From Rhizobium sp. GN54 (GTDB lineage Bacteria; Pseudomonadota; Alphaproteobacteria; Rhizobiales; Rhizobiaceae): a stretch of 64,000 nt of DNA. Below, piece by piece: positions 8,915 to 60,856 of the stretch (position 1 is its first letter; every line of letters begins with the position of its first letter). The notes below the pieces were generated by a model, which was not told the DNA's origin, ran no database searches, and saw only the letters and a program-made list of their open reading frames with translations. The stretch is taken from the NCBI RefSeq assembly GCF_021026345.1, contig NZ_JAJNCZ010000009.1, positions 1 through 64,000 on the forward strand, in the 5' to 3' direction. Made by a program: the position numbers and the translations under genes.

Positions 8915-11731
<2,817 letters not shown>

Positions 11732-43818: not shown

Positions 43819-44122
43819 GTTTCTGCCTATCGCGCCGCGCAAGGCCGTTTCGGGCCGCAGCAGGCGCTGTCTCGAATTTTCGTTGCCGCGACCTTAACAG
43901 CGGCCGCCACGTTCGACAAATTCTTTTTGCGCAGCGTCTTGGCGCGCCGGCTGCCCCGCGCAACATCCGCCAGCAAGCCGGCCGCTTGCCGCGAGGCCCA
44001 ATTGCCCACGCGCGAAATCCACAACCGGCCGGCAAAAAAATTCTGCAGGCCTATTTGCATCCGCCAGGCTTTTGGTTATAAGCCGCCCACACCGACAGGG
44101 CGCCGCCTGCGCCGCCCATCGT
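43819..44122. other. Intergenic gap upstream of tRNA-Gln
   Basis: About 300 bp between the divergent phosphatase start and the tRNA. The last 70 bp carry a promoter for the tRNA (see separate entry). No gene was seen in the rest. Confidence 0.6.
44055..44082 (+). promoter_or_regulatory. Candidate promoter of tRNA-Gln
   Basis: TTGCAT and TATAAG are separated by 16 bases and end about 40 bp before the tRNA. This is near the sigma-70 pattern and suits a stable-RNA gene. Confidence 0.5.
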
Positions 44123-44196
44123 TGGGGAATAGTTCAATGGTAGAACGGCGGACTCTGACTCCGTTAATCTTGGTTCGAATCCAGGTTCCCCAGCCA
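44123..44196 (+). tRNA. tRNA-Gln (anticodon CUG)
   Basis: The cloverleaf is complete: acceptor stem TGGGGAA / TTCCCCA, anticodon loop CTCTGAC with anticodon CTG, T-loop TTCGAAT and an encoded GCCA end. It reads CAG codons. The 3' half (GGTTCGAATCCAGGTTCCCC) is the expected integration site for the tyrosine recombinase that begins about 150 bp downstream. Confidence 0.95.
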
Positions 44197-44269
44197 ATTC
44201 TCGCTAAAATCCCTTAATTCCTTGATTTTCCAGTCGTGCCGGATATCGTTTTGGCATCATTGGCGACCT

Positions 44270-44302
44270 GATGCCCAGAACTGATGCCCACAGGTGATGC
44301 CC
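44270..44302 (+). repeat. Three tandem TGATGCCCA units next to the integrase
   Basis: TGATGCCCA occurs three times at short spacing just downstream of the tRNA and overlapping the upstream start candidates of the integrase. These may be recombinase arm-binding or directionality-factor sites. They are inferred from position only. Confidence 0.4.
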
Positions 44303-44350
44303 ACGCGAAAAATTGCGTGCCGTCGCCGGTGGCGAGCAAGGGCAGTTCCC

Positions 44351-46438
44351 ATGGCGGTCCGCCACGACGTCGAGAACCTCATTCGCCGCGGTAACATCTT
44401 TTACTGGCGCGCGCGTGTTCCACTCTCCTTCATCCGATGCACACCAGGCAGCCGGCTTTCACTCAGTCTTCAGGTATCCGATCATAAGAAAGCACAGATG
44501 ATCGCGCGGCAACTCAACATGCGGCTTGCCGAGATGAAATTGAAACCGAAGGAAATCATGGCTGACAGGGAACAGCTCCAGAAGCTTTTCGAGCGTGTCC
44601 GGAACGCCATGCTCGAGGACCTTGACGACGTCAATGTGCTGGCCAAGCGGAAGGGCCGGGCGGGTCATGTCCGAGAGATGGAACTCGATCTGGAGGCAGG
44701 CTGGGCCTACAACCTTATCGCCAAATTCGGCGCAGCCAAGGATCTCACCCTGGCGGGCGACTGCACGGGCTTGAGCTTCCTGCTGAGGAGCGGAGTACCG
44801 ATCTCCCACGTGGATGCGATCCGGGCAAATCATATCGCTGGATTGAAGCTGGTACGAAGCCCGGATGTCCAAGAAGCTGTCCGAGGCTTGATGGTCACTT
44901 TCGGCATCCCTGACACCCCGCTAAATCGGGAGCGGGCCATGACTAAGTTCTGTGAAGCCCGCGCCGCAGCCCTGCTTGACATCGACGACCGCCACGAGCT
45001 CGTCGATAGAAGCCTCAGTGAACTCACAGGCGGCGGCAGAGCCAACAAATCCTCGACCGAGGTGAAGCCTGCAGGGGTCGAACCAGCGACCCCTGCTTCC
45101 CCGACACTGGCCGAAGAGAGCGTACCGGCAACGACTGCGCCGGATATCCCGGAGGAGGAGGCATTCGCCCACCTCGACTTAACGCCAAGCCCCGCAACTG
45201 CCAGGAAGGCTTCACTCAAACCTCAGGAAGCTGAACAGCGCGTCGTTGTCGTATCGGAGTTTGAGGAGGAATGTGAAAAGCTCATCAAGAACATGGGTGA
45301 AGATTGGGAGCCGGCAACAGCTCGAGATGCAATGGCGCTGGTACGGATGTTCAAATCGGTGCTCCATGAACATGGCGTCGAGCATTCCGGGCAGATCGAG
45401 CAATACCACATTGGGCTGCTGCGACAGCATTTCAACGACATTCCGACCAACTGGGGCAAAAGCGCCCGGATGAGAAGCATGTCGGCGCCGGAGCTTCGTG
45501 CGGAGGGTGAGAAATTGCTCAAGGCGGCTGATATCGCGGGCACTAAGGCGAAGGTTGGTCTGGCCCCAACAACAATCCGCAAACACTTCGGGAACCTGCA
45601 ACACTTTCTCACACACCTGAAAGGCCACGGGTTCGAAATCGAGAGCTGGACATTTGAGGGCCTGCGCCCGAGAAAGCCCAAAGCCGGAGACGTCCGTCAC
45701 CAGCAGTACAAGCCAAAGCCTCAGGACATCGCTCCGATTTTCTCAAGTCCCGTCTATATGGGCTCGCAAGATCACCTGCGAGGAAAACGGAGGAAGCCAG
45801 GCAAGCGCGTCTTTCACGATTCGCTCTACTATCTGCCGATCCTGTTCACCTATCTGGGCCCCAGGCGCAACGAGTTTGCCGGGCTTCATGTCAACGACAT
45901 TGCAAAGGAGGAGGACGGCTACGTCATCATCCTTCAAACGAACAGCATTCGTCGACTGAAGAACGCACAGTCCAAACGACTGCTGCCAATGCCTGAGGAA
46001 TTGGTTCGGCTTGGCTTCATCGAATACGTGCAGGCCATCAAGAGGCTGGGATATGAGGCACTTTTCCCGGATCTGTTCTCAGACAAGACCGACAACAATC
46101 CGGGCGATCGGTTCTATGATACGTTCGTGCCCGTCATGCAGGAGGCACTCGGTGAGAAAATGTGGGATCGAGCGATCCACGCCTTTCGCCACGGCATGGC
46201 AGATACCCTGAAACAAGCAGGTGTCTCTCCGGATGTCATTGACGACATCTCCGGACGACTGACCGAGGGGAGCGAAACAAATACGCGCTACACCAATCCG
46301 GCTGGCCTCCCATTGATGCGGAGCGCGCTCAAGCACTATCCGATCATTACCTCCGCCGTCGAGCCGAAACCGTTGCAGCTCCTGCCGTGGATCGAGAACA
46401 AGCAACCACCTTCATGGGCGCGCAATGGCAAGAAATGA
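44351..46438 (+). CDS. Tyrosine recombinase (island integrase)
   Basis: This 695-aa site-specific recombinase is far longer than usual integrases (about 400 aa), with a long N-terminal region of unknown role. The C-terminal catalytic domain shows Arg in YLGPRRNEF (about residue 505), His-x2-Arg in HAFRHGMADTLK (about 610-613), and a nucleophile Tyr in TRYTNP (about 647). The start MAVRHDVENLIRRGNIFYWR was chosen because it opens the family-like N-terminal domain. GTG/ATG at 44294-44297 is possible. It should insert and excise the island at the adjacent tRNA. Confidence 0.87.
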   Translation: MAVRHDVENLIRRGNIFYWRARVPLSFIRCTPGSRLSLSLQVSDHKKAQMIARQLNMRLAEMKLKPKEIMADREQLQKLFERVRNAMLEDLDDVNVLAKRKGRAGHVREMELDLEAGWAYNLIAKFGAAKDLTLAGDCTGLSFLLRSGVPISHVDAIRANHIAGLKLVRSPDVQEAVRGLMVTFGIPDTPLNRERAMTKFCEARAAALLDIDDRHELVDRSLSELTGGGRANKSSTEVKPAGVEPATPASPTLAEESVPATTAPDIPEEEAFAHLDLTPSPATARKASLKPQEAEQRVVVVSEFEEECEKLIKNMGEDWEPATARDAMALVRMFKSVLHEHGVEHSGQIEQYHIGLLRQHFNDIPTNWGKSARMRSMSAPELRAEGEKLLKAADIAGTKAKVGLAPTTIRKHFGNLQHFLTHLKGHGFEIESWTFEGLRPRKPKAGDVRHQQYKPKPQDIAPIFSSPVYMGSQDHLRGKRRKPGKRVFHDSLYYLPILFTYLGPRRNEFAGLHVNDIAKEEDGYVIILQTNSIRRLKNAQSKRLLPMPEELVRLGFIEYVQAIKRLGYEALFPDLFSDKTDNNPGDRFYDTFVPVMQEALGEKMWDRAIHAFRHGMADTLKQAGVSPDVIDDISGRLTEGSETNTRYTNPAGLPLMRSALKHYPIITSAVEPKPLQLLPWIENKQPPSWARNGKK

Positions 46439-46664
46439 GAAGATTGAGGCGGAAATGATTTCCGCCCGGCTTGCGGGGGGTGGCCGAGCCGAACGACCTG
46501 AAGAAGTGGGCCCATCTACCCCTCAAAAAATCCGATTCAGAATCAAACGGCATTCTATGAAGTAATGGGGGGAGAAACCGCAAACCAACCAAACGCCGTT
46601 AGGCGTTTACCCGACCCGTTTAGTAAGCCCATTTGGCAACGATAGACCAGGCGGACGGGAACGC

Positions 46665-46979
46665 TCAGACCTCTTGGTCGGCGCCGTCGGGATAGAGCAG
46701 ATGGATTTTTCGGCGGAACGGCGAGCCGCCCGTCCGGTATCGCGCGATCAGATCGTCGAACACCGCATCGCTTTCGTGCTCATCGAAACCTTGATCGACC
46801 AACATCGAAACGATCTTGGCCCGGAACTTCTCAAGCTCGGCTTGCTGGCCCTTTTCGATCGCTCGCCGGATTAGCCAGAACAGCGCCACGCGAGCCACGT
46901 CATCTCTATCTGGCCTCCTGGACATTCGATTGGCGTCGCGAAGTGCCTTCTGTCGCTGCCTTGCTGCCTTCTGGTTCAT
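46665..46979 (-). CDS. Hypothetical protein, 104 aa
   Basis: This 104-aa highly charged helical protein begins MNQKAARQRQKALRDANRMSR. A basic N-terminus precedes a hydrophobic-amphipathic stretch (VARVALFWLIRRAIEK) and a C-terminal segment with DEHESDAVFDDL. No known family was recognised. It sits behind the integrase. The start at 46979 removes ten unlikely upstream residues. Confidence 0.5.
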   Translation of the reverse strand: MNQKAARQRQKALRDANRMSRRPDRDDVARVALFWLIRRAIEKGQQAELEKFRAKIVSMLVDQGFDEHESDAVFDDLIARYRTGGSPFRRKIHLLYPDGADQEV

Positions 46980-47298
46980 GATGCTCCTGCCGATCCTCAA
47001 CCTCTTCAATGATCATAGGACCGGCCTGCCGGCGCAAGCCTTGCCCGGCTGAATCGGAAATTTCAGACTTTGAATCGGCTGCGCAGAACAATGAATCAAA
47101 TGACCGCAACTTGTTTCGAGTTGCGCGCACGTTATCTCACGTCAAGACGACCTGTTCGACCGCGAACGGCGTTGGTGAATCATCGTATTCGAGTTCCGAA
47201 TCAAAAATCCGGTGTTCGGAATCAAATGAGCGCAATTTGTTTCAGGTTGCCGGAGACTTGATGTGAGTTGCCAACAACGTGGCACACCTTGTCTCAAA
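46980..47298. other. Intergenic gap with repeated palindromes
   Basis: About 320 bp between two minus-strand genes with no convincing ORF. It contains the pair of 31-bp direct repeats listed separately, plus several AATC-starting short repeats. Confidence 0.6.
47094..47250. repeat. Pair of 31-bp near-identical direct repeats with inner dyad
   Basis: Copies at 47094-47124 and 47220-47250 both start AATCAAATGA and differ at five or fewer bases. Each contains a dyad GCAAC-N9-GTTGC (GCAAT in the second copy). Such paired sites look like binding sites for a regulator or replication/partition protein of the island. Confidence 0.6.
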
Positions 47299-48227
47299 TC
47301 ATGTCGCATCATCGCGATGGTGTCCGAGGATCCAGCCCTCCCATTTGCGGACGGCATCGATTGCCGGAATGCCTTTACCCCGCCGGCCGTCAACGACATC
47401 AAGCATGCCCAGCAGTCCGATGACAGCATCGAAACGATCCTCGCCTGCCTTGTCCGAGCCGAAGCCATCGTTGATGGCGGAAAGGAGCAGATCGGTATCG
47501 AGGCCCGGGCGCGCCGCAAGCCAAGGCAAGATATTCTGTCCCATCCGTAGCCGGTCTACGTGACGCCGCTTGCTCCAGCCACTTCGTGGCATGCCGAACT
47601 GACGGTACACGTCGCCAGGATAGGTTTCTACAACGACGACTGGTTTTCTGTTAGCGAGTTCAGCCAGCCTTCCATCGAAGGGCCACAGTCCAATCTCGGC
47701 ACAATGACTTCCCGCCATCCCGAGATCGCGCCTTTGCCGACCTGATTGCCGCCAAGCGTCCAGAACAACATGCAGGCAGCCTGCCGATCGGCAGTCGCCC
47801 GTTCGCAGACACGCAAGAGCTATGACGCACCAGAAATCCCAAGGGCATCGAAGAGATGGGCACGCGCCGTGCCACCAGGGCGGACGGGATAGAACGGGCG
47901 CTGCAGCGAGATATGGTCGCGATGACTGGCGACATTGTACCAATCCGACCAGATCCCGGAGCCGAATAATGTCAACGCCTCCTGGAAAGAACCGAGGCCG
48001 ATTGCTCGCGCATAGGCCGCCGGCAGGCCGATCGGGAAGTCGAAGCCGATGAGAAGCGCGCCAGGATCGACGGCACGACACTGTAGTCGGTCGAACAAGC
48101 TCGATGTGTCACCGACGAGTTCCGGAGGCTGAACATGCCAGTGTCCGTCGCGTTGGATGGCCACAGCCATCCAGCGCTTTTTCTGCTCCATGCTCCAATC
48201 GGAATGGGCTACGACTGCAACACTCAT
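47299..48227 (-). pseudogene. DUF429-like RNase H-fold protein, broken
   Basis: Joining three segments gives one protein of about 310 aa: from 48227 to a TAG at 47820-47822, then in the same frame to about 47690, then in the next frame to 47299. The pieces carry the family's acidic motifs GFDFPIGLP, VVVVETYPGDVY and DRFDAVIGLLGML, as in predicted nucleases of the DUF429 type. One nonsense and one frameshift separate them. It starts 42 bp after the M41 gene on the same strand, so it may once have been the last gene of that operon. Confidence 0.75.
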
Positions 48228-48269
48228 CCTGCACTCCGTTTCTCCTCATCGGCCGCATGACCATCAGCT

Positions 48270-49046
48270 TCAGGGCGGCAGATCATCGTCTCTCAGTATG
48301 TGCATCACCGCGTTTTCATCCATTGCCTGGGCATCGAACAGCGCCTTGGCGAGGGCATGAAAGACCGGCCTGCGCCTCCTGAGGATCGCGGCGGCTCTAT
48401 CGAGCGCCACCTCCAACCTGGCGTGAACGCATGCAGCGAGTTCTGGGTCCCGGTCCAGAACCGCGCCCGGATCGCGACGCGGGCGATAGAGCAGTGGATG
48501 CTCAGCGCCAAAGCCAAGCGTCCGCTCCATGTCGAACGCGACCCGCGTGGCCCGCGCCAAATCACTTTCGTCGGCGCCCGCCGAGCCGCTGGATACCCGC
48601 TTCAGCGCCAGTTTTTCGGCAGCCCTCCCGGCCATCAACACGGTGAGCATGTTTTCGTACCAGGTGTAGGTATTGGTTCCGGATGCATGGAAGCCGAGCA
48701 GATTATAGGCGCCCTCCCCGGTGTCGATATTGAGACCTCGGACGGGGCCGAGATCGAGCGCATGATGGACGACGGCATGCCCCGCCTCGTGGAATGCGTA
48801 GCGCCAGCGCAAATCGATGGGTAGGGGTGGGCGATTGCCGCGAATCCCCTCTTCGAGGTCCTCGTAGCGGATCGCGCGCTTGCCGCGGCGCGCCCTCAAT
48901 CGCGCCTCCCGTACGATGCGCTCGATATCCGCGCCCGTCAGTCCCATCGCCCGCGTGGCGAGACGCCGCAGGATCGCGTCGACCGGATTGCCCTGCTGCG
49001 CGGCTGCCGGTGTTGCCGTCGTGGTGTTGTTCTGCGGCTCGGTCAT
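48270..49046 (-). CDS. M41 zinc metalloprotease half of a split FtsH-like protease
   Basis: This 258-aa protein starts with a low-complexity tail, then at about residues 33-62 has the helical lid of an AAA module (GLTGADIERIVREARLRARR) that normally belongs to the ATPase. The M41 peptidase follows: HEAGH (86-90) with the third zinc ligand expected at Asp162 (SGSAGADESDLARA). There is no membrane segment. Its start overlaps the stop of the upstream AAA gene by four bases, so the two chains are made together and should assemble into one FtsH-type protease. Confidence 0.82.
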   Translation of the reverse strand: MTEPQNNTTTATPAAAQQGNPVDAILRRLATRAMGLTGADIERIVREARLRARRGKRAIRYEDLEEGIRGNRPPLPIDLRWRYAFHEAGHAVVHHALDLGPVRGLNIDTGEGAYNLLGFHASGTNTYTWYENMLTVLMAGRAAEKLALKRVSSGSAGADESDLARATRVAFDMERTLGFGAEHPLLYRPRRDPGAVLDRDPELAACVHARLEVALDRAAAILRRRRPVFHALAKALFDAQAMDENAVMHILRDDDLPP

Positions 49047-51040
49047 CGGCCTGCTTCCTTCCGTTCGTCTTCTGCCTCTTCCTTCAGATGGTCGGCGACG
49101 ATCTTCCTCAGCGAGAACCCATCATCGGCTTCCGACCGGGTGTCAGGTACCGGCTCGCCGATCAGCGACGTCACATCGTCGCCGAGATGATGAGCGAGGA
49201 TCTCCGCAAGCGTCGGCACATCGGGTTTCGGAATCTCGATATGCGTTTCCAGCCTCCCGGACCGCTTGATGGCCTCATCGATATGGTCAGGGCGGTTGGT
49301 CGCGCCGACGACGATCAATCCCTCGGATTTTACGGCGCCATCGAGCAGTTCCAGCAACTTGTTGACCACGGCATTCCAGTAATCGGAATACTCACGCTCG
49401 GCAGGTTGCCGCTTGCCGATGCCGTCGATCTCGTCGATGAACAGGATCGCTGGCGCGATGGCACGGGCCTCGACAAAGGTCTTGTTCATCTTGTCGATCA
49501 CGTCATTGAGATGGCCGCCCTGAAGCCAGGTCGAGACCGAGGTGACGACCAGCGGAACCTGCAGGCTGTTGCACAGCGCACGGGCAAACGTCGTCTTCCC
49601 GGTTCCGGGTGGGCCGGACAAAAGCAGCTTGGTGCTCATTTCCGACCAGGTGAGGATGCTGGCTCGGTAATCGTCCAGGTCCGCCTTGAGATCGAGCGCC
49701 CAGTCTTTTGCTCGGCCGTATCCGGAAAGGGTCTCGACGGTCATCGGTGACCTGTCGCCAAGTTCGACGGGTGTCGGCAATAGCTCCGGCTGGATCACTT
49801 CGGCACCCGACGGCTTGTCCTTCTTCAAGCGGCCGTTGCTGTCACTGTCGGAGGCCTTCGGCTTTTCGCCCGACCCCGAGGGTTTCTCGGTAGAGGTGGA
49901 GGAAGGCTTGGATCCGGATCCCTTTGTCTTCTCGCTCCCAGCGTCTTCCTCGCCATCGCCTTCCTCGAAGTCGCTGCGATTGCGTTCGATGAGCGAGGCA
50001 AGGACATGCAGCGCGTCCCGAACATGCCGTCCCGGCCGAAACGCAAGGACCAGATCCTCCAGCGACAGCCACCGCGCATCCGAATCCGATGGCAGGGGAA
50101 CGCTTTCAATTACCGTGTCCGGATAGAGCACCTCGATCAGGTCAGCGACAAACCTGCGGTCAAGCTTTCCCGTCTCCAGCGACAGATCGGCGGAGATGCG
50201 CAAGAGCGAGGGAATATCCGATCGCTTCTCGGCGATGGCAAGGATGGGCAAGTCGCGGGACAGCGCGCTGATCATCCGCCGACGCAGGGCATTGCCGGTT
50301 ACGCGATGCACGCCAGCGCCTGAGAATGCCACAAGCCGCTTTCGAACCTCTCCTTCATGAACGTCGAAGTGGTTGTCATCGAACATATGGTCGGCATCGA
50401 TGATGGCGAACGGACCGCCAGGCACCAGCCGGGATTTTTCCAGGAGCCTCACCCCCTCCCGTTCGAAGCCATCGAGCGGCGCATGGAGCGTGATGACCGG
50501 TGTCACATGGATCAGGGTGTGAACAATCTCCCGCAGCGACCGTCCGCTGCCGCGCGCCGCGCGCGCCAACACCAGGGCCGCCACGACATGACTGACCAGC
50601 GTCGGCGCTGCTGCGCTGTCCACAAGACGAAACGTGTAGGCACGGCGATCGAAGCCTTTGCCCAGCACCGTATCTTGCGCGATTGAACTGCGACGCTTCC
50701 GGGGAAAGGCAAGCAGCGGCGAAACGGGCGTCATGTCGATGACCTCCATCGTCACGACACCGCCGCCGTCTCCGCCGGGACCGGGGCCGGAACCTGGTTT
50801 GCTCGCCTCCTTCGGTGCAATAAGCCCTCCGCCAAAGTTTTGTCGGAACCAGAGACCATCGCGAACCGGATCGCCGGTCAGCCTTGTCGTGTCGAAAGCC
50901 GGGCTGTAGCAGCAAAGCAGATGACCATCGACATCGGCGACTTTCCCTTCCAGCAGACCATTGCGCAGCGCGGTCCGGCGCGCCTCGCGGCGGGCAAGAT
51001 GCCGGAGGCGGCGGATGAACAGACGAGCCAGTTTATCCAT
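49043..51040 (-). CDS. AAA+ ATPase half of a split FtsH-like protease
   Basis: This 665-aa protein has an uncharacterised N-terminal part of about 380 residues, a Ser/Lys/Asp-rich linker (about 380-440) and a C-terminal AAA core: Walker A GPPGTGKT (about 476-483), Walker B ILFIDEIDG (about 530), and the second region of homology GATNRPDHIDEA with an arginine-finger SGRLETH. The helical lid is missing at the C-terminus and is found instead at the start of the next gene. It overlaps the downstream M41 gene by four bases and the upstream small gene by eight. The start MDKLARLFIRRL was chosen over an upstream in-frame codon. Confidence 0.82.
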   Translation of the reverse strand: MDKLARLFIRRLRHLARREARRTALRNGLLEGKVADVDGHLLCCYSPAFDTTRLTGDPVRDGLWFRQNFGGGLIAPKEASKPGSGPGPGGDGGGVVTMEVIDMTPVSPLLAFPRKRRSSIAQDTVLGKGFDRRAYTFRLVDSAAAPTLVSHVVAALVLARAARGSGRSLREIVHTLIHVTPVITLHAPLDGFEREGVRLLEKSRLVPGGPFAIIDADHMFDDNHFDVHEGEVRKRLVAFSGAGVHRVTGNALRRRMISALSRDLPILAIAEKRSDIPSLLRISADLSLETGKLDRRFVADLIEVLYPDTVIESVPLPSDSDARWLSLEDLVLAFRPGRHVRDALHVLASLIERNRSDFEEGDGEEDAGSEKTKGSGSKPSSTSTEKPSGSGEKPKASDSDSNGRLKKDKPSGAEVIQPELLPTPVELGDRSPMTVETLSGYGRAKDWALDLKADLDDYRASILTWSEMSTKLLLSGPPGTGKTTFARALCNSLQVPLVVTSVSTWLQGGHLNDVIDKMNKTFVEARAIAPAILFIDEIDGIGKRQPAEREYSDYWNAVVNKLLELLDGAVKSEGLIVVGATNRPDHIDEAIKRSGRLETHIEIPKPDVPTLAEILAHHLGDDVTSLIGEPVPDTRSEADDGFSLRKIVADHLKEEAEDERKEAGR

Positions 51041-51566
51041 CGACGCGCCCTCCCGTCTCCGCGGCAATAATTGCCGTTTCGAGGTTTTGCACCGGATCGC
51101 GCGGACGCGTCCGACCACGCCGCCGTTCGCCCCTGGGGCCGGACCTCGCGGAAGCCGCCAGCACACGCTCGCGCGGCGAACGGCGCGGCAGATGGATGTC
51201 AGCCGCCACCGCTACCGGGGTCGGTGAGATCAGATGCTCGTTCCGGGACCAACCGAGATCCCGGTTGCGGCTTCGCAGCCAGTCAAGCAGCAAGCGGCAG
51301 GCCGCATTGCCGCCGTCTGCGAGCGCATTCAATCGACGCATCAGAGGCTCCGGCACAGGACCATCCAGCAGAGGGCTTTGCCGCGCAAAGGCGAACGCCA
51401 GGCCGATCAAAACGGCGGGGTCATCCGCGACGCGATCGATGCCGGCGGGTTTGGCATGGGCGATAGTCGCCAGCCTGCTGTGAAGGCAAGGCGACGTGAT
51501 GGTGTCGGTCGTGACCGCTTCGCAACGGAAGCCTGCCACAGACGAGCGGTGGGTTTCGATGGACAT
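51033..51566 (-). CDS. Hypothetical 177-aa protein of the split-protease operon
   Basis: This 177-aa protein begins MSIETHRSSVAGFRCEAVTT. It is helical in the middle (AVLIGLAFAFARQSPLLDG, LLDWLRSRNRD) and ends in a basic stretch (RGERRRGRTRPRD). No family was recognised. Its stop overlaps the AAA start by eight bases, so it is translationally coupled and likely acts with it. It could be an adaptor or substrate-recognition factor, but nothing in the sequence proves this. Confidence 0.6.
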   Translation of the reverse strand: MSIETHRSSVAGFRCEAVTTDTITSPCLHSRLATIAHAKPAGIDRVADDPAVLIGLAFAFARQSPLLDGPVPEPLMRRLNALADGGNAACRLLLDWLRSRNRDLGWSRNEHLISPTPVAVAADIHLPRRSPRERVLAASARSGPRGERRRGRTRPRDPVQNLETAIIAAETGGRVDG

Positions 51567-51679
51567 GACTGTCTCCTCGCCGGAGCGCGTTCGCCTCCGG
51601 CGTTCATGGAAATGGAAGGATGAGGGAAGCCGGCCACACACGGCGCGGCCGCGATCGGTGACGCTAGGCCAGTGGCGCG

Positions 51680-52747
51680 TCAGTGCCGGCGGGGACGACG
51701 GGCAAAGCCGACCCGGATTCGGACCGGTTCCGGTTCGTCATCCTGATCCTCGTCGAAGCAGCCAAGATCGCAGTGACCATCGTCCTCGTCCTGCGCGGCC
51801 ATCGCCTGCTCTTCTTCATAGCTCCGCGCCGGACCGTTCAGGGCGATGAGCGGCCTGTCGGCGATGGCCGAAGCAGGCGCCGTGTTGGAGACGGCCGCCT
51901 CCGGAACACCGAGCGCTTTGCGCGCTTCCGCTTCGAGAAGCTGCTGGACGCGGCGGCCGAAGCGCAGGCGCAGTTCGGCCATGCAGGCGGCGACACCGTC
52001 GATCTCCAGCAAGTCGTCGATTTCGGAAAGCGCCCAGATGCCGGTGGCATGATCGCTCGGACGGCTGGCGCCATCGACAATCGCGACCTCGACGGTGTCG
52101 ACCATCATGCGCTTGTGGTGCTTGTAGAGCCAGTCGGGCAGCACCATGGCGCCGGCCATCATCTTGAACTTCAGCTCTTCGAGGCGGCTGGTGTCACCGT
52201 ACGAGGCGAGCGAACGCTTGACGTCGAGGATGTAGGCGGTATGCCGTGCGCGGTTTACGACGATCAGGTCCGGCGTGTAACTGCCCTTGGCCGGCGCCTC
52301 GCAATCGAGCTTCACGCCGTCGAGGCAAGACCAGTCGTTTCCGGAAACGGCTTCAAGCGCCGCCTTGACCAGCGGCAGTTTGAGCGACTGCGTCAGCACG
52401 GTCACATTCGGATTGGCTTTCGCCAGACGATCAACCGCCTGCTCGAGCAGTTTGCCTTCCCGGAACGACACGGCGCGGACAAGCGAAGCAATGTGAACGT
52501 AGTGGCCAAGGATTTCGTCCTCGACCGGCTCGCCGTCGGCGATTGCCGCAATGGCGCGATCGATCAGCAGGTCGAGATCGGCCTCGACGTCGGCGAAGCG
52601 AATGATGTGCGGATGGCGGCGCAACGCGGCCGGTTCGTTGATGCTGTTGGCACCAAGGCCGAACGGACGCTGAGAGAACATCGAGGTCGAGACGGCGGTC
52701 GAACGGAGAACTTCCCCGGCGGGGACAGAGAGAGTATGCGTGGTCAT
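51680..52747 (-). CDS. PD-(D/E)XK-type nuclease-like protein
   Basis: This 355-aa protein has a core fitting the PD-(D/E)XK nuclease fold: Glu97 on a helix (REGKLLEQAV), then TPDLIVV with Pro159-Asp160, followed by YILDVKRSL with Asp175-Val-Lys177. The C-terminus is acidic and low-complexity. The fold call rests on the motif and spacing only. It lies upstream of the 177-aa, AAA and M41 genes on the same strand, 113 bp away, and is probably part of the same unit. A DNA- or RNA-cleaving role is inferred. Confidence 0.6.
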   Translation of the reverse strand: MTTHTLSVPAGEVLRSTAVSTSMFSQRPFGLGANSINEPAALRRHPHIIRFADVEADLDLLIDRAIAAIADGEPVEDEILGHYVHIASLVRAVSFREGKLLEQAVDRLAKANPNVTVLTQSLKLPLVKAALEAVSGNDWSCLDGVKLDCEAPAKGSYTPDLIVVNRARHTAYILDVKRSLASYGDTSRLEELKFKMMAGAMVLPDWLYKHHKRMMVDTVEVAIVDGASRPSDHATGIWALSEIDDLLEIDGVAACMAELRLRFGRRVQQLLEAEARKALGVPEAAVSNTAPASAIADRPLIALNGPARSYEEEQAMAAQDEDDGHCDLGCFDEDQDDEPEPVRIRVGFARRPRRH

Positions 52748-53079
52748 AGCCCGATTCCTTTTGCATAAGGCTTGAGGGTCAGGCCCTTGGTAGCGTTGGC
52801 GCGCTGCCTTGGGCCGTTTTGTGTTCGGTCATCCGAACGCCCCCAACCTGGCAGGACCGGCGACCGGGCTCAAGGACCCGGAACAGTAAAAAGGAACAAA
52901 GCCGGTACGTAGTTAACGGTGGGCTCACGAAGCCCGAGACCGGTGAAGGCTTACGGCGATCGGCACCATTCGCCTGTGCGTTTCCACTCGGCATCCGAAG
53001 GCAAAGCAAAAGGGCCGACATGCGGCCCTCTCGAGTTTGGTGGGAAGGTCGGTTCACAGCCTCCAAGCCCGCGCGATCA
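52748..53079. other. Intergenic gap with a terminator
   Basis: About 330 bp upstream of the nuclease-like gene. Apart from the hairpin at 53001-53029 and a plausible promoter side, nothing was identified. The 95-aa ORF here is not convincing. Confidence 0.6.
53001..53029 (-). terminator. Terminator after the DUF3102-like gene
   Basis: On the minus strand, stem AGGGCCG / CGGCCCT with a five-base loop is followed by UUUUGCUUUG, an intrinsic terminator just past the stop at 53080. Confidence 0.75.
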
Positions 53080-54324
53080 CTAGGCGGCAGATGCAGCTAC
53101 ATCGTCGGCTTTGTTGGCGGCCGGCTTGACGCGGTCAAGGAAGGCTGGCCGTCTAAAGGCCTTCGGGGGCTCGGCCATAGATTCTGCCAGAGACGGGATC
53201 GAGTCTTCCGGAAGAATCTGCCTGGATGTCGCCGACTGCTCCATCGTGACTTTGGCCCCGAATGGCGCAAGCATGGCCTCGAGCCGCTTTACAGCTTCCG
53301 CTTCGACAGAGTCCCTTTCGGAGCCGGCAACGACCGAGACCCCGTCATCCTGGTGCCGCTGCTGATTGGCAGCCAGCAAGCTTGTGTCGACCAACAATGT
53401 GGCTGCTGGCGAGATCGACGCCTTGTCGGCCTTCGGCCAGACAGGGTCCTTGGTTTTCGCCGAAGCCCACTCCAACAATGGCAAGACTTCGTTTTCAAGC
53501 CATGTCCGGAGTTCTCCCTTTTCCGGCCAGGTGTCCGTGCCACCGATCTTGTGAAGCAGATTCCCGACGTCGTTCCACCGGGTTTTCGCCGGAAGCTTGG
53601 TCTCCCAGATCACGTAGTGATAGTGCGGATTGGGCATGACAAACTGGGCAAGACTTTCAAGCTCCTTGCGGGCAAGGCGGGCAGTCAAATGAATCTGAGC
53701 CGCAAGCGTCTTTTTGATCAACCGCTTCTCCAGAACCGCCTCACTGACATGCGCGCGGATCTCCTCGAGGTGACCAATGAAGGATTTGACGCCATCCCGG
53801 ACTTTGATCGCGATGATCGCCTTGAGCCCGTCAAGGCCGCCGACATCGTATGGATCGATCTGCGGCCCTGCCTCTGTCTCGTTTTTCGAGCCGGCCACAA
53901 TCGCTACGACGTCCTGAACCCTGAGTCTGCCGTTCTGGGCGGCAAAGCCAATGGCCTGCTCGATCTGCTCGGGCTCGAAGGCACTCAACTTTCCAAGAAC
54001 CGTCGGACCGACGGCCAGTTCCACCAGAATATCCTTGTAGCGAGCCAGATTGCGAAACACCGCGCGCTGGGTCCGGACATGGCGCGCCGTGTAGCCGCAG
54101 CGCTCCACGGCCCATTTTTCGAGTGTTCCTTCCGGGAGCAGCCCGGCTGCGCGCTCAAGATGCTCGCCCAACTTGAAAGTCTCTTCGGTCGAACGGCGCG
54201 AAACGCCGATGAGGAACATGGCCGTCTCTTCGAGCTGGCTCTTAGTGTCCTCGGCGAGCGAATAGGCTTCGTAGAACGTGCGAGCGGCGGACGGGAGGGT
54301 GAATGCGTCGGTAGTCTTGGTCAT
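53080..54324 (-). CDS. DUF3102-like protein, putative DNA-binding
   Basis: This 414-aa protein has an N-terminal helical region resembling DUF3102 (GEHLERAAGLLPEGTLEKWAVERCGYTARH, in parts), a possible helix-turn-helix at about 50-90, and a middle region PHYHYVIWETKLPAK. A metal-site-like HYHYV is seen. The C-terminal third is low-complexity. The start MTKTTDAF follows GGAGATAACC. It has its own terminator, so it is transcribed apart from the nuclease-like gene. Function unknown. Confidence 0.45.
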   Translation of the reverse strand: MTKTTDAFTLPSAARTFYEAYSLAEDTKSQLEETAMFLIGVSRRSTEETFKLGEHLERAAGLLPEGTLEKWAVERCGYTARHVRTQRAVFRNLARYKDILVELAVGPTVLGKLSAFEPEQIEQAIGFAAQNGRLRVQDVVAIVAGSKNETEAGPQIDPYDVGGLDGLKAIIAIKVRDGVKSFIGHLEEIRAHVSEAVLEKRLIKKTLAAQIHLTARLARKELESLAQFVMPNPHYHYVIWETKLPAKTRWNDVGNLLHKIGGTDTWPEKGELRTWLENEVLPLLEWASAKTKDPVWPKADKASISPAATLLVDTSLLAANQQRHQDDGVSVVAGSERDSVEAEAVKRLEAMLAPFGAKVTMEQSATSRQILPEDSIPSLAESMAEPPKAFRRPAFLDRVKPAANKADDVAASAA

Positions 54325-54680
54325 GGTTATCTCCATGTAAGAGGAATGTCAGTAAAAGCATAACCGCCTTTACCCCTCTATTATCTCAGAACACGCACCA
54401 AATTAAAGCAATCGTAAGTTTTGCAATAAATTGTGGCAAAGAATAACTATGACTAATACATCGAACAATTCCTTACGATACTATCGATCACTTAAAAAAT
54501 GCGGCGAATCAAAAAATTTTCATTTCCATGAAAACAAGCAACGTCCACAATTAATACGTGCACGCTTTCAGCTAAAACGAGGACTGACGCGTCGGGAGTG
54601 TCCGGGCCTTTTCAAGTCAGCCTTCCGCCTGGTACCAAGATGCAGGCACCTGATCTCCGGAGTGAGAGCGAGTCCATCCG
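54325..54680. other. AT-rich intergenic gap
   Basis: This 356-bp stretch is clearly richer in A and T than its neighbours. It holds the divergent promoters of the DUF3102-like and HNH genes and an inverted repeat TTTTCA-N6-TGAAAA at 54517-54534. No gene was identified. The composition suggests foreign origin. Confidence 0.6.
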
Positions 54681-55615
54681 ATGGCAAAGGCCATACTCAC
54701 AACCAAGGTCGATCCGACATACGACGACCTTCCGGAATAGCGGTATCATTTCCCGCGCACCTATCTGCGTCAGGTCGAGGCGGCTCGCGGGGACTGGATC
54801 GTTTATTACGAGCCCAGACGTCCGAACGGCGACCTGATGAAGACAGGCGGCAAACAGGCGTATTTCGCGACCGCCCGGATAACGGACATCATTCCCGATC
54901 CATCGAAGCCTGATCACTTTTACGCGCTCATCGCGGATTTCCTGCATTTCAGTCATGCCGTCCCGTTCAAGGAGGCCGACCTTACTACGAGTGCGGCCTA
55001 CGCAAGGAGGACGGCTCGACCAACAAAGGTGCGTTCGGCCGCGCTGTCCGCAACATTCCCGACGCCGAGTATGACCTGATCCTCGCTGCCGGCTTTGCGC
55101 ATGTCATTGGAAACCGTGACCGCGAGAGGCCGACGCCGGATCCGGCCGAGGAAGCCCGGATCGGATTTGGCGACAATCCGCAGGTGCCCTACGAGATTGA
55201 TCGTGTCGATCGTAGGCTCGTGTCGCAGGTTCTGCAGCGGCCCTTCCGCGATCGCGCCTTCTCCGCGGCCATCAAGACAGCCTATCATGACACCTGCGCC
55301 GTCACCGGCCTCAAGCTAATCAACGGCGGCGAACGCTCAGAAGTCCAGGCCGCCCACATTCGTCCGGTGGCAGATCGAGGGCCGGACAGCGTTCGCAACG
55401 GGCTTGCGCTTTCCGGCACGGTGCACTGGATGTTCGACCGCGGGCTGATTTCGGTCGATGACGATTACGGCCTGCTGATTGCGTGTGGCGGCGTGCCGGA
55501 TACGATCACGCGGCTCATCAATCCCGAGCGGCGCCTGCTCGTCCCATCACGGCCGGACGAGCGGCCGCATACGCAGTTTTTGCACTACCACCGCGAGAAG
55601 GTGTTCAAGGGATAA
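54681..55615 (+). pseudogene. HNH endonuclease, broken
   Basis: The intact family member would be about 310 aa, starting MAKAILTTKVDPTYDDLPE. Here codon 20 is TAG (54738-54740) and one T is missing near 54982, which turns CTTTACTAC into CTTACTAC. The later HNH core is intact in the shifted frame (TCAVTGLKLINGGERSEVQAAHI, in parts, and ALSGTVHWMFDRG). The C-terminal 143 residues (GTG at 55184) could still be made alone. Such HNH proteins are often restriction-like. Confidence 0.78.
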
Positions 55616-55651
55616 GGACGCGGAAATGATTTCCGCCCTACACGCAGCAGC

Positions 55652-55804
55652 TCAGTCCTCGCTGAAAAAGTCCTCGTCCAGCCGCTTGAATTCGACAGTG
55701 CGGTAGCTGCGGACGCCGACGCCGTGTTCGATCATCAAGTCGGCCAGTTCCTGTCCATCGATGAGGATCACCCGGTGGACCAAGTGCTTGACGTAGTCGC
55801 GCGC
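55652..55804 (-). pseudogene. mrr: C-terminal remnant of an Mrr-type restriction enzyme
   Basis: About 50 residues (ARDYVKHLVHRVILIDGQEL, then LADLMIEHGVGVRSYRTVEF and KRLDEDFF) match the C-terminal end of Mrr, which cuts methylated foreign DNA. The N-terminal DNA-binding part and most of the nuclease domain are missing. Truncation lies next to a perfect hairpin at 55825-55864, perhaps the scar of the event that removed the rest. Confidence 0.65.
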
Positions 55805-55824
55805 CGGCTGGCGGCAACGTTCGT

Positions 55825-55864
55825 GCCCCCCACGCCTTCGTTCGCTCGCGAAGGCGTGGGGGGC
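55825..55864. repeat. Perfect 16-bp hairpin
   Basis: GCCCCCCACGCCTTCG and its exact reverse complement flank an eight-base loop. No T tract on either side, so it is not a standard terminator. It abuts the mrr remnant and could be a palindromic repeat of a REP/MITE type. Confidence 0.7.
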
Positions 55865-55899
55865 CGCCGCGGCTGGGTTCCATCCTCGTCCCACGGGCA

Positions 55900-57603
55900 T
55901 TATGTTTCCCTTTGCCTGGCCATCCTTCGCCTTATCCGCACGACATTGTGCAGGTACAGGCAATAGCCCGAGATGAAATGCTCGACGTCGTCGATGCGGA
56001 CGCGGAAGGCGTGGTGCCTGCTGAAAAAACTTCCAGCGATTTTTTGCGGCGCTTTGAAGTACATGGCGATCTCCGGATAGAAGCAGGCGAACCGCTGATG
56101 TTCGGCACGGTGATCGATCGCCTCGACCAATGCCCGGACATCAAATGGCGGCGGGAGCGGATTGCCGGTGGTCTTCATTGTGTCGACGAGCAACAGCGTC
56201 GCCATCAACAGTTCCAGAAAGGTCGGATATGCCGTTTCTCGCTCTCGAATGAATGGCAGGTTGCCGAAACCGTTTTTCAACCCGAACTCGAAATATCGTT
56301 GTTCCGGATGGTAGCGCGTGATCTCATTGGCGCAGTAGGCGAGCCAATGATCGTGATGCTTCCAGTGATCTGTGCGAATGAAATGTTCGAACGCCTTGAT
56401 CGCCGACGTCAGCCAAAGGGGATCTCTGTCGATCTCGTGAAGACGAAGAAGCGCCAATACCGCCTCTCCGTCATAGAAGACGATGCGGAAGCGATCCTTG
56501 ACAGTGAGAGTATCGCCCTGAAGAACATGCACAAACGCGCCGCTTGCTGCATCGAGGAACCGGTCGACGATGCCTTTGGCCAGGGCGCGCCCAACGGGGA
56601 GATAACGAGCATCGCGCGTCAGCGACGCAAATTTGGCAATCGTGAGGACCAGAACCGCCTGCGCACCGAGCTTGATCTCGCCGTGGTTCGCGTGATCGAC
56701 GACGAAGAGCCGCTCGCCATCCCGTCGCATCGCAGTGCGCAGCACTTGGTCGATACCCCGCGGCACGTGACGGCCGATCTCGCCGTTTCCGGTTGCCTCC
56801 CACGCCTCGAGCATCGCATAGAGTGTCCCGCAATGACGAAGTATGTTGTAGGTGGGAATGACCGCGTCATATGCGGGGAAGTAGCCGTAGACGAAGGAAC
56901 CGTCATCCCGCATTTGCCTAGTGAGGTACATGCCGGCATTGTCGATGAGGTTTTCGATCTCGTCGGCGACCATCGGTGCGGCCCGGAGTCCTTGGCCGAA
57001 GCCGCAATCGGCAAGGATGCGGACCTCGCCCGTCCGATCGCTAAACAGGCTCTTCGTATCGAACAGGTACCATGCGGGCAGTTGCTGCACGCCGCTGGAA
57101 AGCGGCGGCTGTTTGCGTGACGTCTGCAGGTACCGGTTTATCCGTTCAAAGTTCAGTCCGAGCGGACGGCCGGCATCACAGACCCAGGCCGCGATACCGT
57201 TCAACTCCTGTTCAAGGAGAGCGGTATTGAAATTCGGGTCGAAAGCGATGCCGTGGCGGAAATAGTTTCGCCGTCGGCCGGACAACTCAGCAAGGACCTC
57301 CGGCGGCGTGGCGACACGAATGGAGTGTAATACGTCGATCTTGATCCATCGCCAGCGATTTTCATCGGGGATTCGCTTCCTGAGGTGTGCGATGGCTGCG
57401 CGCCAGGCGGTGTCCAGCGAGTTTCCAACGCCCGTGGCGCAAATCGCCCGGGTTCGGGCATCCGAAACAGATGCGATCAGGACGAGCTTGGGCTTACGCC
57501 CAAAGTGCGACGAAGTGGCGTCAAGGGCTTCCCCCTCGAGAGTGGCGGCGGCTTGGCGAAGGTTGGCGAGCACTCTCTCAGTCGGAACTTGCAGTTTGGT
57601 CAT
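55900..57603 (-). CDS. Protein of unknown function, possible six-hairpin fold
   Basis: This is a 567-aa soluble protein. The region at about residues 200-500 has repeated helical, aromatic-rich segments (DDGSFVYGYFPAYDAVIPTY, ILRHCGTLYAMLEAWEATG) like the (alpha/alpha)6 barrels of six-hairpin glycosidases or epimerases. The first 170 residues are of another type. No signal peptide is present. It follows the autotransporter gene by 73 bp on the same strand. Neither substrate nor pathway can be told. Confidence 0.5.
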   Translation of the reverse strand: MTKLQVPTERVLANLRQAAATLEGEALDATSSHFGRKPKLVLIASVSDARTRAICATGVGNSLDTAWRAAIAHLRKRIPDENRWRWIKIDVLHSIRVATPPEVLAELSGRRRNYFRHGIAFDPNFNTALLEQELNGIAAWVCDAGRPLGLNFERINRYLQTSRKQPPLSSGVQQLPAWYLFDTKSLFSDRTGEVRILADCGFGQGLRAAPMVADEIENLIDNAGMYLTRQMRDDGSFVYGYFPAYDAVIPTYNILRHCGTLYAMLEAWEATGNGEIGRHVPRGIDQVLRTAMRRDGERLFVVDHANHGEIKLGAQAVLVLTIAKFASLTRDARYLPVGRALAKGIVDRFLDAASGAFVHVLQGDTLTVKDRFRIVFYDGEAVLALLRLHEIDRDPLWLTSAIKAFEHFIRTDHWKHHDHWLAYCANEITRYHPEQRYFEFGLKNGFGNLPFIRERETAYPTFLELLMATLLLVDTMKTTGNPLPPPFDVRALVEAIDHRAEHQRFACFYPEIAMYFKAPQKIAGSFFSRHHAFRVRIDDVEHFISGYCLYLHNVVRIRRRMARQRET

Positions 57604-57676: not shown

Positions 57677-60600
57677 TCACCACCTGATACGCAGGCCCAC
57701 ATTCCCCTCAATGCCGTGGAAGTCATTTCCCGAAACGTCCGTGTTGTATGACACACTTGCGTAGATACGGGTGTTCTGGTCGAAATCCGCTGTAAGCCCG
57801 GTGCCAAGCTCCAACGTGGTTGCCTCTCGCGTCGAGGTGAAACCAGTGGCGTTGAATGCGACTGTACTGTCGGCGCCAAATTCGTGCCAGAGGTTGGCGA
57901 GAAGGAATGGATTGACCTTCGCGCCATTCACATCGTAGCTGCCGAGGAGGCGCGCACCGATGCGCCCCGTCCAGGCATTTTCATCGTCGATGGCGATGCG
58001 CCCGCCGGGATCCTGGACTGTGTCGAAGTCCTGATGCTGCCAAATCAACTGCGCTTGCGGCTCGATGGACCAATTCTCATGAACGTCAAATTTCGTCCCA
58101 GCCTCGAGCGAAGCCGTGATCGCAGTTCCGTCGACATTGGACGTGTATCGGCCGATTGAACTCGTGTCCGCGTCCAGCCAGGAATGCATGAGGACCGCGT
58201 CGACATAGCCTCCGCCGGGCCACGTGTGGGTCCAGTAGCCGCCAATGCTGTAGGCATCGATATCCAGGGTGCCGACGGTTATGTCGAAGCGACCCAGTGC
58301 AAACCCTTCGATCTCGCCGCTGGCACGACTATAGCCCAGAAAGAGACCCAACGTATCCTCCTGGCTATTGGCATGCTCAACCTTATAGACAGGAGCGCCG
58401 GCCTGGATACCCCAGGTCGTCCCGTCGAAACTGGGGTTCAGAATTCCTTCCAGATCCTGACTGTAGCTTTCTCCGAACATCCGCGTCCAAACGAGATGCT
58501 TCGGATTCTCGCTGTCGAACCAGTTCTGCTCGCCATGACGTTCGTGGAACGTCCCGAGCGTCGAGCGGAGCAGACCGCGTGATACGCTGGGGAGAACGGT
58601 GAAAATTGGAACTTCCGGCCGGTAGGACGGTATGAACCCACTCCCGCCGCCATCATCCCCGTCTCCATCTCCGTCCCCGTCTCCGTCTCCATCTCCATCA
58701 CCGTCGCCATCCCCGTCGCCATCACCGTCGCCATCCCCATCGCCGTCCCCGTCGCCGTCCCCGTCGCCATCACCGTCGCCATCACCGTCGCCATCACCGT
58801 CGCCATCTCCATCCCCGTCTCCGTCACCGTCGCCGTCTCCGTCACCGTCGCCGTCACCGTCGCCGTCTCCATCGCCATCCCCATCACCGTCGCCGTCTCC
58901 ATCGCCATCCCCATCGCCGTCTCCATCACCGTCCCCGTCTCCATCACCGTCGCCATCCCCATCGCCGTCCCCGTCGCCATCCCCGTCTCCGTCGCCGTCG
59001 CCGTCGCCGTCTCCATCGCCATCACCGTCGCCATCCCCATCGCCGTCGCCGTCACCGTCGCCATCCCCATCGCCGTCCCCGTCGCCATCACCGTCATCGC
59101 GGAGATGATTGCGCAGGTACCAGTTTTCGGCCGTCTCATCCTCTTCGCCGCCTCTGAACAATAAGTACTCGTAGGCCCCGGCGGTGACCCGGTGGAGCAG
59201 GCGAAAGGATCGTGGCGCGGTAGTGCCGCCATTGGTCGCTTCCACGACGAGGATGCCATCTTCCTGGGTTCGCGCGCCCTCACCGCCAACATTCTCAACA
59301 CCCACTCGGGTCACACCGGACGCTTCACCGCCAGAGACGACGAGCTTGTCTGCCGGCGAAGTGTCATCGCCCAGCACCGATTGGAGCAGCAACTGCCCGG
59401 AATCGCCAAGGTAGTCGCCCTGTATCGTCAGGCTGTCGGTCGTCGAGTTGGAGCCGGATGCCAGGTCGATCACGCCGCTGTTCTCGACGCTCACGAGGGC
59501 AGATCCGAAGGGCAGGACCGACGTTTGACGCCCGCCGCCGAAGAGCGTGCTCGTCTCGTCGATGGTCAACGTTCCGGTCGCCGTCCCGCTATCCCCGAGC
59601 GTAAGGTTTTCCGTCATCTGCAGGGACGAACTCTCCGTAAGGGCAATGAGCTCCCAGTTCACAAGTCTCTGGGGACCGGCGCCTTGGGTATCTTCCCATG
59701 TCAGGGTGTCCCTGTTCATTCCGCCGTCAACGCGGATTGTCTTGAGCTCGGCGTCGTCAAGGCCCCGGAACAGCGCGCGGTCGCGGTTGTCGCCCATATC
59801 GATGCCGCCGATCAGACCGCCGGTCCACACCATCGTATCCCGCCCGGTGCCCGCTTCCAGGTTGCCGGTGACCTCACCACCGATCAGCCGAAAGGTGTCG
59901 CGGCCGGCGGCCTGCTGAACACTGGCGCTGACGCGGCCACCTTCCATGCGGAAGAGATCGTTGCCGCTCCCTTGGTCGACGCTTCCATTGATGGAGCCCG
60001 GATCGTAGTTGATGATCGTATCATCGCCGCTTCCAAGTGCGACCGTGCTCTGAATGGTGCCGTAGTTGGTTATGTCCGTCTCGCTTGCGCCGATGACGAA
60101 CACCCCGTTGTTGATGAATGCGCCCGAATTGTTGACGATCCCTGTCGTGCCGTTGCCGTCGATCGTTACACCGTTGTTCAGCGTTCCGCTGTTGGCGATG
60201 CTGTTATCGCTGTCACCGGTAAAGCTGAACGGTGAATTGATCGCAGAACCGGCATTGTTCACGACGGAGTAGTTCCCATCTCCGGTGATGACGAGCCCGT
60301 TGTTCATGTTGCCGGAATTCTCGAAAATCACGACATCGTTGTCGTCGAGCGTCACACTGTTCAGATTGCCGGCACTGGTGACGTCAAGCAGGCCTGTGTT
60401 CGAGGCGCTGAACGGCCCGTTGAAGTTTGTGCCAGCGAGGATGTCAACATAGAGTTCATCGAGGCCGTTGGTGGTGTATCCGGCCGGATTGCCATCGCAG
60501 ACGACCGTGTCTCCCGAGGAAGGAGCCGCCGGATTGCAGTCCGCGAGCGCAATGCCGGCATCGGGAAGTAAGAAGATACTCGCAAGGGCGGCCTTGCGCA

Positions 60601-60691: not shown

Positions 60692-60856
60692 GGCTCTCTC
60701 CCCGATCCTTGCAGTCCTTCGAGATGCTATCGATGGTGATTTCGTTCGATGTTCCAAACGCTAACAGAGTGGAAGGTTAACGCTTGATGCCGCCGCCATC
60801 GCCAGCGCCGAAGCAGTGTCCCCAATTGGCTCCCGCCCGTGAGTTTCTCGGGCAAA

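Follow-up and report, generated by a model that had tools for sequence, protein, structure and literature searches.

The stretch of DNA analysed here (64,000 nucleotides (nt) of contig NZ_JAJNCZ010000009.1 of Rhizobium sp. GN54, positions 1 to 64,000, referred to below as the window) carries a group of closely packed minus-strand genes which encode a PD-(D/E)XK-like protein (P3), a small protein (P1), an ATPase (P2) and an M41 zinc protease (P4), followed by a broken DUF429-like gene. An earlier note, made from the sequence alone, had described these five genes in this order as a candidate defence-type operon, and their coordinates were confirmed (Table 1). The P1 stop overlaps the P2 start and P4 overlaps the P2 stop. 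The HEAGH, Walker A and Asp175/Lys177 residues singled out in that note are present in the window genes and conserved among relatives. Its gene list omitted P5 and P7, two linked genes, and a structured leader preceding P3 together with a predicted antisense RNA. We describe here the unit which these genes form, its mobile context and a mechanism by which it may be controlled.

Searches of a named genome collection yielded 98 relatives, the best 80 of which were retained (the named loci). All six profiles (P1, P2, P3, P4, P5 and P7) match in 68 of these 80. Individually, matches within the fetched stretches number 80 for P3, 74 for P5, 77 for P1, 77 for P2, 73 for P4 and 75 for P7; some of the missing matches are due to contig ends, and the values for P2 and P4 are upper bounds since their profiles may match other AAA or FtsH proteins. 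The initial P3 alignment was too diverse for scanning the collection and a closer set was used instead. By profile, P3 was detected in 34 of the 151 Rhizobiaceae genomes searched (33 with a single sequence as query), and only two weak partial matches to its profile were obtained among 384 other genomes of the class. The protease is found in 31 of the 151 genomes, 27 of them shared with P3 (Fisher 2.6e-19), and P7 in 32, again with 27 shared (Fisher 1.5e-18), the genome lists behind both tests having been compiled by hand from profile searches. The earlier note had considered that the grouping would be chance if ATPase/protease pairs occurred without the nuclease-like gene. Among 41 strong protease matches (>200 bits, counted by hand) in the 151 genomes, P3 lies within 5 kb in 32, and the grouping is therefore not chance. 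Three of the other nine are at contig ends and six lack P3: two are decayed or fragmentary, two retain most other genes of the unit and two have different neighbours. More distant fused AAA-M41 proteins also exist without P3. The operon is thus a real conserved functional unit, with exceptions.

Four of the five genes originally listed belong to this unit. The DUF429-like gene lies outside it and was rejected as a member: its cluster comprises the window and 24 other loci, compared to 74 for the ATPase/protease cluster. It is a single open reading frame (ORF) of 307–316 amino acids (aa) in 18 related loci, and the window copy is apparently frameshifted. Among the P5 proteins, 9 of 22 members match Pfam DUF3102 (PF11300; best E 2.3e-4), and the window P5 itself has no Pfam DUF3102 match. 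No P3 match was found in the source genome outside the window, and no description of the module was found among the open-access titles and abstract openings listed in our literature searches.

The PD...[DE]xKR signature is kept in 107 of 112 distinct P3 proteins (it is missing from L036, L053, L070, L075 and L076), in agreement with the PD-(D/E)XK motif proposed earlier. The AlphaFold model of P3 has a confident core, and most of its top structural matches (R2 retrotransposon, EcoO109I and cap-snatching endonucleases) we take, from their titles, to be PD-(D/E)XK nucleases. P3 appears as a PD-(D/E)XK-like protein and putative nuclease. It has no family match in Pfam, NCBIfam or PHROGs, and none to a Rep family. 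A conserved C-terminal VGFA was considered as a degradation tag and rejected, the model showing a terminal strand at this position (predicted local distance difference test, pLDDT, ~82).

P2 ends after the AAA core (PF00004), while P4 starts with AAA_lid_3 (PF17862) followed by the M41 domain (PF01434). The split AAA/M41 protease recognised earlier would be one FtsH/Cdc48-like enzyme, and the cut is located inside the AAA+ module. Among 116 distinct ATPase/protease loci, which include sister-family loci and rest on ORFs picked automatically, 110 retain HExGH, 108 have Walker A and 99 fit a strict Walker B pattern. P2 and P4 are fused in a single protein in several loci of Aurantimonas, Aureimonas, Fulvimarina and Phyllobacterium, which suggests that both halves work as one enzyme. 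An unrooted tree of 106 rows, with 44 of its forks open, requires at least four changes between the fused and split forms, in either direction. The P2 model (mean pLDDT 75, predicted template modelling score 0.49) resembles the AAA cores of AFG3L2, an m-AAA protease (Z 22.6), and of FtsH (Z 21.2). Because residues ~150–629 align with some double-AAA proteins (p97, NVL and Rix7; root mean square deviation 17–19), the model suggests that P2 carries an inactive first AAA-like domain. A conserved WL stands in the alignment where the pore loop is expected, which we presume to be Vps4-like. The enzyme has the M41 active site and AAA core in common with FtsH and m-AAA proteases, but includes an additional AAA-like domain and has its lid and protease on a separate polypeptide; FtsH/M41 AAA+ proteases are single polypeptides, whereas the window has two genes. 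No open-access paper on a split FtsH was found in our literature search. A naturally divided AAA+ module that also has fused relatives lends itself to studies of AAA+ ring assembly.

Two relatives of the ATPase/protease pair (L170 and L173) have other neighbours instead of the nuclease; the AAA protein next to that of L170 is, we assume, Lon-like. The source genome also includes a sister AAA-M41 protein encoded by one gene (L166, G000:C11:24000-40231, ORF 9051-10997). The ORFs which follow it are presumably metallophosphoesterase-like and PHP-like, and the leader model described below has no match in this stretch.

The leader covers ~190 nt upstream of P3 and shows 72% mean column identity in an alignment of 55 sequences. 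In the window, leader and start codon together terminate in AAGGAATCGGGCTATG. Of 86 leaders, 68 remained after near-identical ones had been removed at 93% identity, and the alignments used 55 and 45 of the 68, those left out by hand (13 and 23) being divergent or redundant. A fixed structure of 13 pairs, derived from the same sequences on which it was tested, is paired in 94.9% of cells over the 45 sequences. It includes 40 double-change cells compared to 12.2 in shuffled alignments (reached in 0 of 500) and to 0–7 when the structure is slid along the alignment, and its covariation score is 0.200 against 0.104 in shuffles (0/500). Covariation in the leader is strong but rests on one hairpin, D. 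A model of the leader, R1, matches in 34 of the 151 family genomes, 30 of which are among the 34 with P3; the other four include two weak matches. Outside the family it matches in 1 of 371 other genomes of the class. In many distant members a short ORF distinct from P3 starts at the leader AUG and precedes it, while in the group to which the window belongs this short ORF continues into P3. At the gathering score, Rfam recognised only the tRNA in window positions 43900-56000 and seven relatives; a relaxed threshold gave one match near the leader, to asX2, with 18 bits for a cut-off of 70. Between P5 and the leader, a terminator scan identified one site (0.5 in shuffles), and a similar hairpin is present in most of 17 aligned sequences. 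One small genome (G078; L187-L190 and L075) has six leader copies, some of them before very divergent nuclease-like genes.

The strand opposite the start of P3 carries a conserved promoter-like pattern. Relative to the last position of the start codon's complement, CTT occupies −37 to −35 in 103 loci (C.97, T.99, T.94) and an NTA block has T.92 and A.92 at −13/−12, leaving 17 nt between the two hexamers; the interval is less conserved. More distant loci, 49 in number, have a comparable pattern (C.94, T.98, T.88; T 1.0, A 1.0). The rhizobial RpoD consensus is CTTGAC-N17-CTATAT, which we take the pattern to resemble. The RNA predicted to start here, ~77 nt long, folds into two hairpins (z −3.1), and the four such stretches of 76–78 nt that were folded range from z −3.0 to −3.8. 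Such a transcript would span the start region and hairpin D and terminate at a short U-tract; in the window the antisense hairpin is followed by GTTTTG.

Hairpin D presents a loop which varies between copies. It could be read in 117 of 128 loci, about ten of which had been fetched twice, and the recurring alleles are CGCCAA (34), CUACCAA (13), CUGGUAA (12), UUUGCAC (9) and UUGGCG (7), together with 24 rarer ones. On a 75-row P3 tree built with a quick method (73 labelled rows), at least 41 loop changes are needed, and 200 shuffles need 42–49, as if the alleles switched almost independently of ancestry. When flanks are ≥90% identical, 25 of 36 pairs differ in the loop; this count was made without prior removal of near-identical leaders, an earlier, biased count having looked stronger. 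Counting the loop as read and its complement, 105 of 117 copies and 21 of 29 alleles contain YUNR, compared to 28–37% of random loops. YUNR is the motif which forms the U-turn in loops through which antisense RNAs make contact (PMC6562991). Loop-complementary 6-mers show no excess elsewhere on the sense strand within 1.5 kb compared to shuffled assignments (74 loci), and a cis pseudoknot partner for the loop was rejected on these grounds. If the loop pairs with the antisense strand, no excess in cis would be expected.

Table 1. Positions of the module and of neighbouring features in the window
Feature	Position	Strand	Evidence or remark
P5, DUF3102-like protein, 418 aa	53080..54336	−	linked gene upstream of P3
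Terminator-like hairpin past P5	53007..53033	−	weak evidence
Structured leader of nuclease-like gene	52748..52936	−	alignments, covariation, model R1
Hairpin D, variable loop	52782..52815		window allele CGCCAA on sense strand
Predicted antisense −35 element, CTTCCC	52711..52716	+	position-specific conservation, 103 loci
Predicted antisense −10 element, GTATGC	52734..52739	+	spacer 17
Predicted cis-antisense RNA, ~77 nt	52746..52822	+	two-hairpin fold; both ends inferred
P3, PD-(D/E)XK-like protein, 355 aa	51680..52747	−	motif, AlphaFold model, structural matches
P1, small protein, 177 aa, conserved core ~50 aa	51033..51566	−	alignment
P2, ATPase: probable inactive AAA-like domain (~130–362) and active AAA core without lid	49043..51040	−	PF00004, alignment, model
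P4, AAA lid and M41 zinc protease	48270..49046	−	PF17862, PF01434, HEAGH
Broken DUF429-like gene, passenger	47299..48227	−	two frames
P7, 104-aa linked protein, no known family	46665..46979	−	alignment
P6, island tyrosine integrase (DUF6538)	44294..46438	+	
tRNA-Gln (CTG), integration site	44123..44196	+	att repeat 44177-44198

The tRNA-borne island suggested previously was delimited by the 22 nt at the 3′ end of tRNA-Gln, which are repeated at contig positions 100703-100724, 56.5 kb away. Of 30 related loci scanned, 20 have the same integrase family beside tRNA-Gln (CTG) and three have it beside tRNA-Gln (TTG); no tRNA was found near the integrase in the remaining seven. Tyrosine integrases accompany the module in 37 loci, window included, and large serine recombinases in 17, one example of which was identified. 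In Ensifer adhaerens Lc04 (L077), the serine recombinases and the module, with little else, are followed by genes which, from their ORFs, appear to be ordinary chromosomal genes. Six annotated plasmid stretches were inspected and rep genes were in view in four of them (repABC plasmids). The same module travels with three kinds of mobility gene: tyrosine integrases, large serine recombinases and repABC.

Other genes are found in these surroundings. A 777-aa protein without a Pfam or PHROGs match (L078:16303-18636) forms a cluster of 21 related loci, in which its gene usually separates P7 from the integrase; no member was seen in the window. Four of the six plasmid stretches (L031, L032, L034 and L036) have a small gene with a WGR domain close to the module. 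Elsewhere on the window's island, positions 57677-60757 encode an autotransporter with a long GDGDGD repeat tract. Viral contigs yielded one P3 relative, L157, an IMG/VR contig catalogued as viral in which the module is present together with the tRNA-Gln-type integrase; this contig may represent an island and not a virus.

We propose, with about an even chance of being right, that the module consists of a nuclease silenced by antisense RNA and a protease of its own, and that it is a core component of rhizobial plasmids and islands serving element maintenance, entry or competition. The opposite-strand promoter would produce an antisense RNA of ~77 nt with its 5′ end opposite the P3 start codon. 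This RNA would extend over the Shine-Dalgarno sequence and use the loop of hairpin D to pair with the leader. In cells with a resident element, this RNA would silence the nuclease operon. If the element were lost, or entered a cell lacking antisense RNA of the matching type, expression of the operon would follow and the nuclease would act. The protease, for which the small protein P1 may serve as a guide, would limit the nuclease or clear host or rival proteins. An element with the same loop would be silenced in trans, so that loop alleles would define something like compatibility groups. Elements would benefit in maintenance or in competition with one another, and not in phage defence as such. 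The sequence does not distinguish between addiction, an entry burst and exclusion.

Several observations weigh against this proposal. The antisense RNA is itself a prediction from the conserved promoter-like pattern and the fold. The −35/−10 pattern was spotted by eye before it was tallied, a generic promoter scan flagged no promoter at the antisense site, and the U-tract past the antisense hairpin is short (T.37,.80,.73 and.39 over 98 loci). The nuclease, protease and toxic activities of the module are likewise predicted, and the structural matches of P3 score modestly (Foldseek E 4.6e-3 and Z 8.5 at best). In the leader, RNAalifold proposes 29 pairs of which three change on both sides, all in hairpin D, and 38 of the 40 double-change cells of the fixed structure fall in three pairs of this hairpin. 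Of five covariation measures, two fail to exceed shuffles: the number of pairs changed on both sides (4 vs 3.1; 106/500) and that of further pair types (5 vs 8.1; 500/500). Leader and nuclease-like gene are also not strictly associated: the leader is retained where P3 was not detected in L171, L172 and G014, and four genomes have a P3 profile match without the leader. Only two of seven pairs with flanks ≥98% identical differ in the loop. The compatibility idea implies that loops should differ within a genome, which is not supported, no avoidance being seen among copies in one genome (2 of 23 pairs are equal, 2.9 expected).

The defence or conflict function put forward in the earlier note survives in part: the unit is real, its nuclease-like fold, split protease and mobile context are supported, and the anti-phage role is unsupported. 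A defence system against phages or plasmids, in which the nuclease would cut incoming DNA, the AAA+ protease would sense or activate and the leader would simply prevent leaky toxicity, is nevertheless the alternative which survives best, and we consider it unlikely. It is favoured by the AAA ATPase beside a protease, which recalls IetA-type systems: with PADLOC, the AAA domain of P2 was matched with IetA models at the top, and P7 gave two marginal matches (E 0.029 and 0.049). The HNH and Mrr remnants reported as neighbours are both present (the Mrr remnant occupies 55655-55810, with 52 aa aligned at 92% identity). In the window it is the HNH gene which is close to the module, and in a relative an Mrr gene is. 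However, PADLOC gave no match for P1, P3, P4 or P5, so that the resemblance to IetAS is restricted to the AAA domain and does not extend to the module's other genes. The IetAS protease is subtilisin-like, while that of the module belongs to M41. A tblastn search with P3 against 50,697 phage records found nothing, and in the genomes sampled the module is nearly limited to one family and is tied, with P5 and P7, to several element types. The anti-phage role is considered unsupported because of these PADLOC and phage negatives, the near-confinement to one family and a regulation which appears incompatibility- or type I-like. Beyond the types of gene there is no positive evidence for defence here, and it may still be the function.

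Marginally less probable is that the leader is a riboregulator which binds a protein or ligand, for example P5 or P7, the opposite-strand pattern reflecting constraint on the sense strand. Co-inheritance of P5 and P7 with the module would fit this reading, as would the purely predicted status of the antisense RNA and the negative promoter scan. On the other hand, the spacing between CTT and NTA is constant in the 49 distant loci, with little conservation between the two blocks and with differing encoded peptides beneath, and the loop alleles swap without an excess of matching cis sites. Replication or copy-number control, in which the antisense-regulated product would be needed for replication or transfer of the element like Rep in IncFII and I-complex plasmids, is improbable: a leader with a short ORF, an antisense hairpin and UUGGCG/CGCCAA alleles fit those replicons as described in PMC10724649, and rep genes are nearby in the plasmid stretches mentioned above, but the regulated gene encodes a PD-(D/E)XK-like protein outside the Rep families, repABC plasmids already own a replicon and island copies are integrated.

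If the module is indeed an antisense-silenced nuclease, the system nearest in logic of which we are aware is SymE/SymR with Lon in E. coli. SymE promotes RNA cleavage and inhibits growth, and is repressed by LexA, a cis-antisense RNA and Lon (PMC1891008). SymE has an AbrB fold and Lon is a host protease, whereas the module has a PD-(D/E)XK-like protein under control and brings its protease in the same operon. In I-complex (IncI/IncK/IncB) and IncFII plasmids a leader hairpin is paired by an antisense hairpin RNA, to which the module would be analogous by prediction. Loop bases affect compatibility of IncK and IncB/O plasmids, as stated in PMC10724649, and the UUGGCG loop hexamer of the I-complex literature, which figures there in the title of a reference, is among the module's alleles. 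The module differs from these plasmids in that its downstream gene is not a replication initiator, its loop alleles are many and a cis pseudoknot partner was not found. With hok/Sok and other type I toxin-antitoxin loci it shares an antisense RNA, predicted here, and a YUNR contact loop (PMC6562991), but its product is a large nuclease-like protein with a co-transcribed protease and not a small hydrophobic toxin. A loose precedent for hindrance of an incoming element is provided by Cop repressor proteins, not antisense RNA, which hinder establishment of cognate plasmids (PMC5717011).

More tentatively, and with clearly less confidence than in antisense silencing itself, we suggest that rhizobial mobile elements of several kinds share an RNA compatibility code in which a small set of interchangeable loops of 6–7 nt, read by cis-encoded antisense RNA, decides whether an incoming nuclease/protease is silenced by the resident element or fires, and hence governs entry, coexistence and loss of elements. 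Were this true, a single regulatory logic would join plasmid incompatibility and toxin-antitoxin control across islands and repABC plasmids in the Rhizobiaceae, which include major symbionts and plant pathogens, and the compatibility of such elements would be readable from a loop of 6–7 nt.

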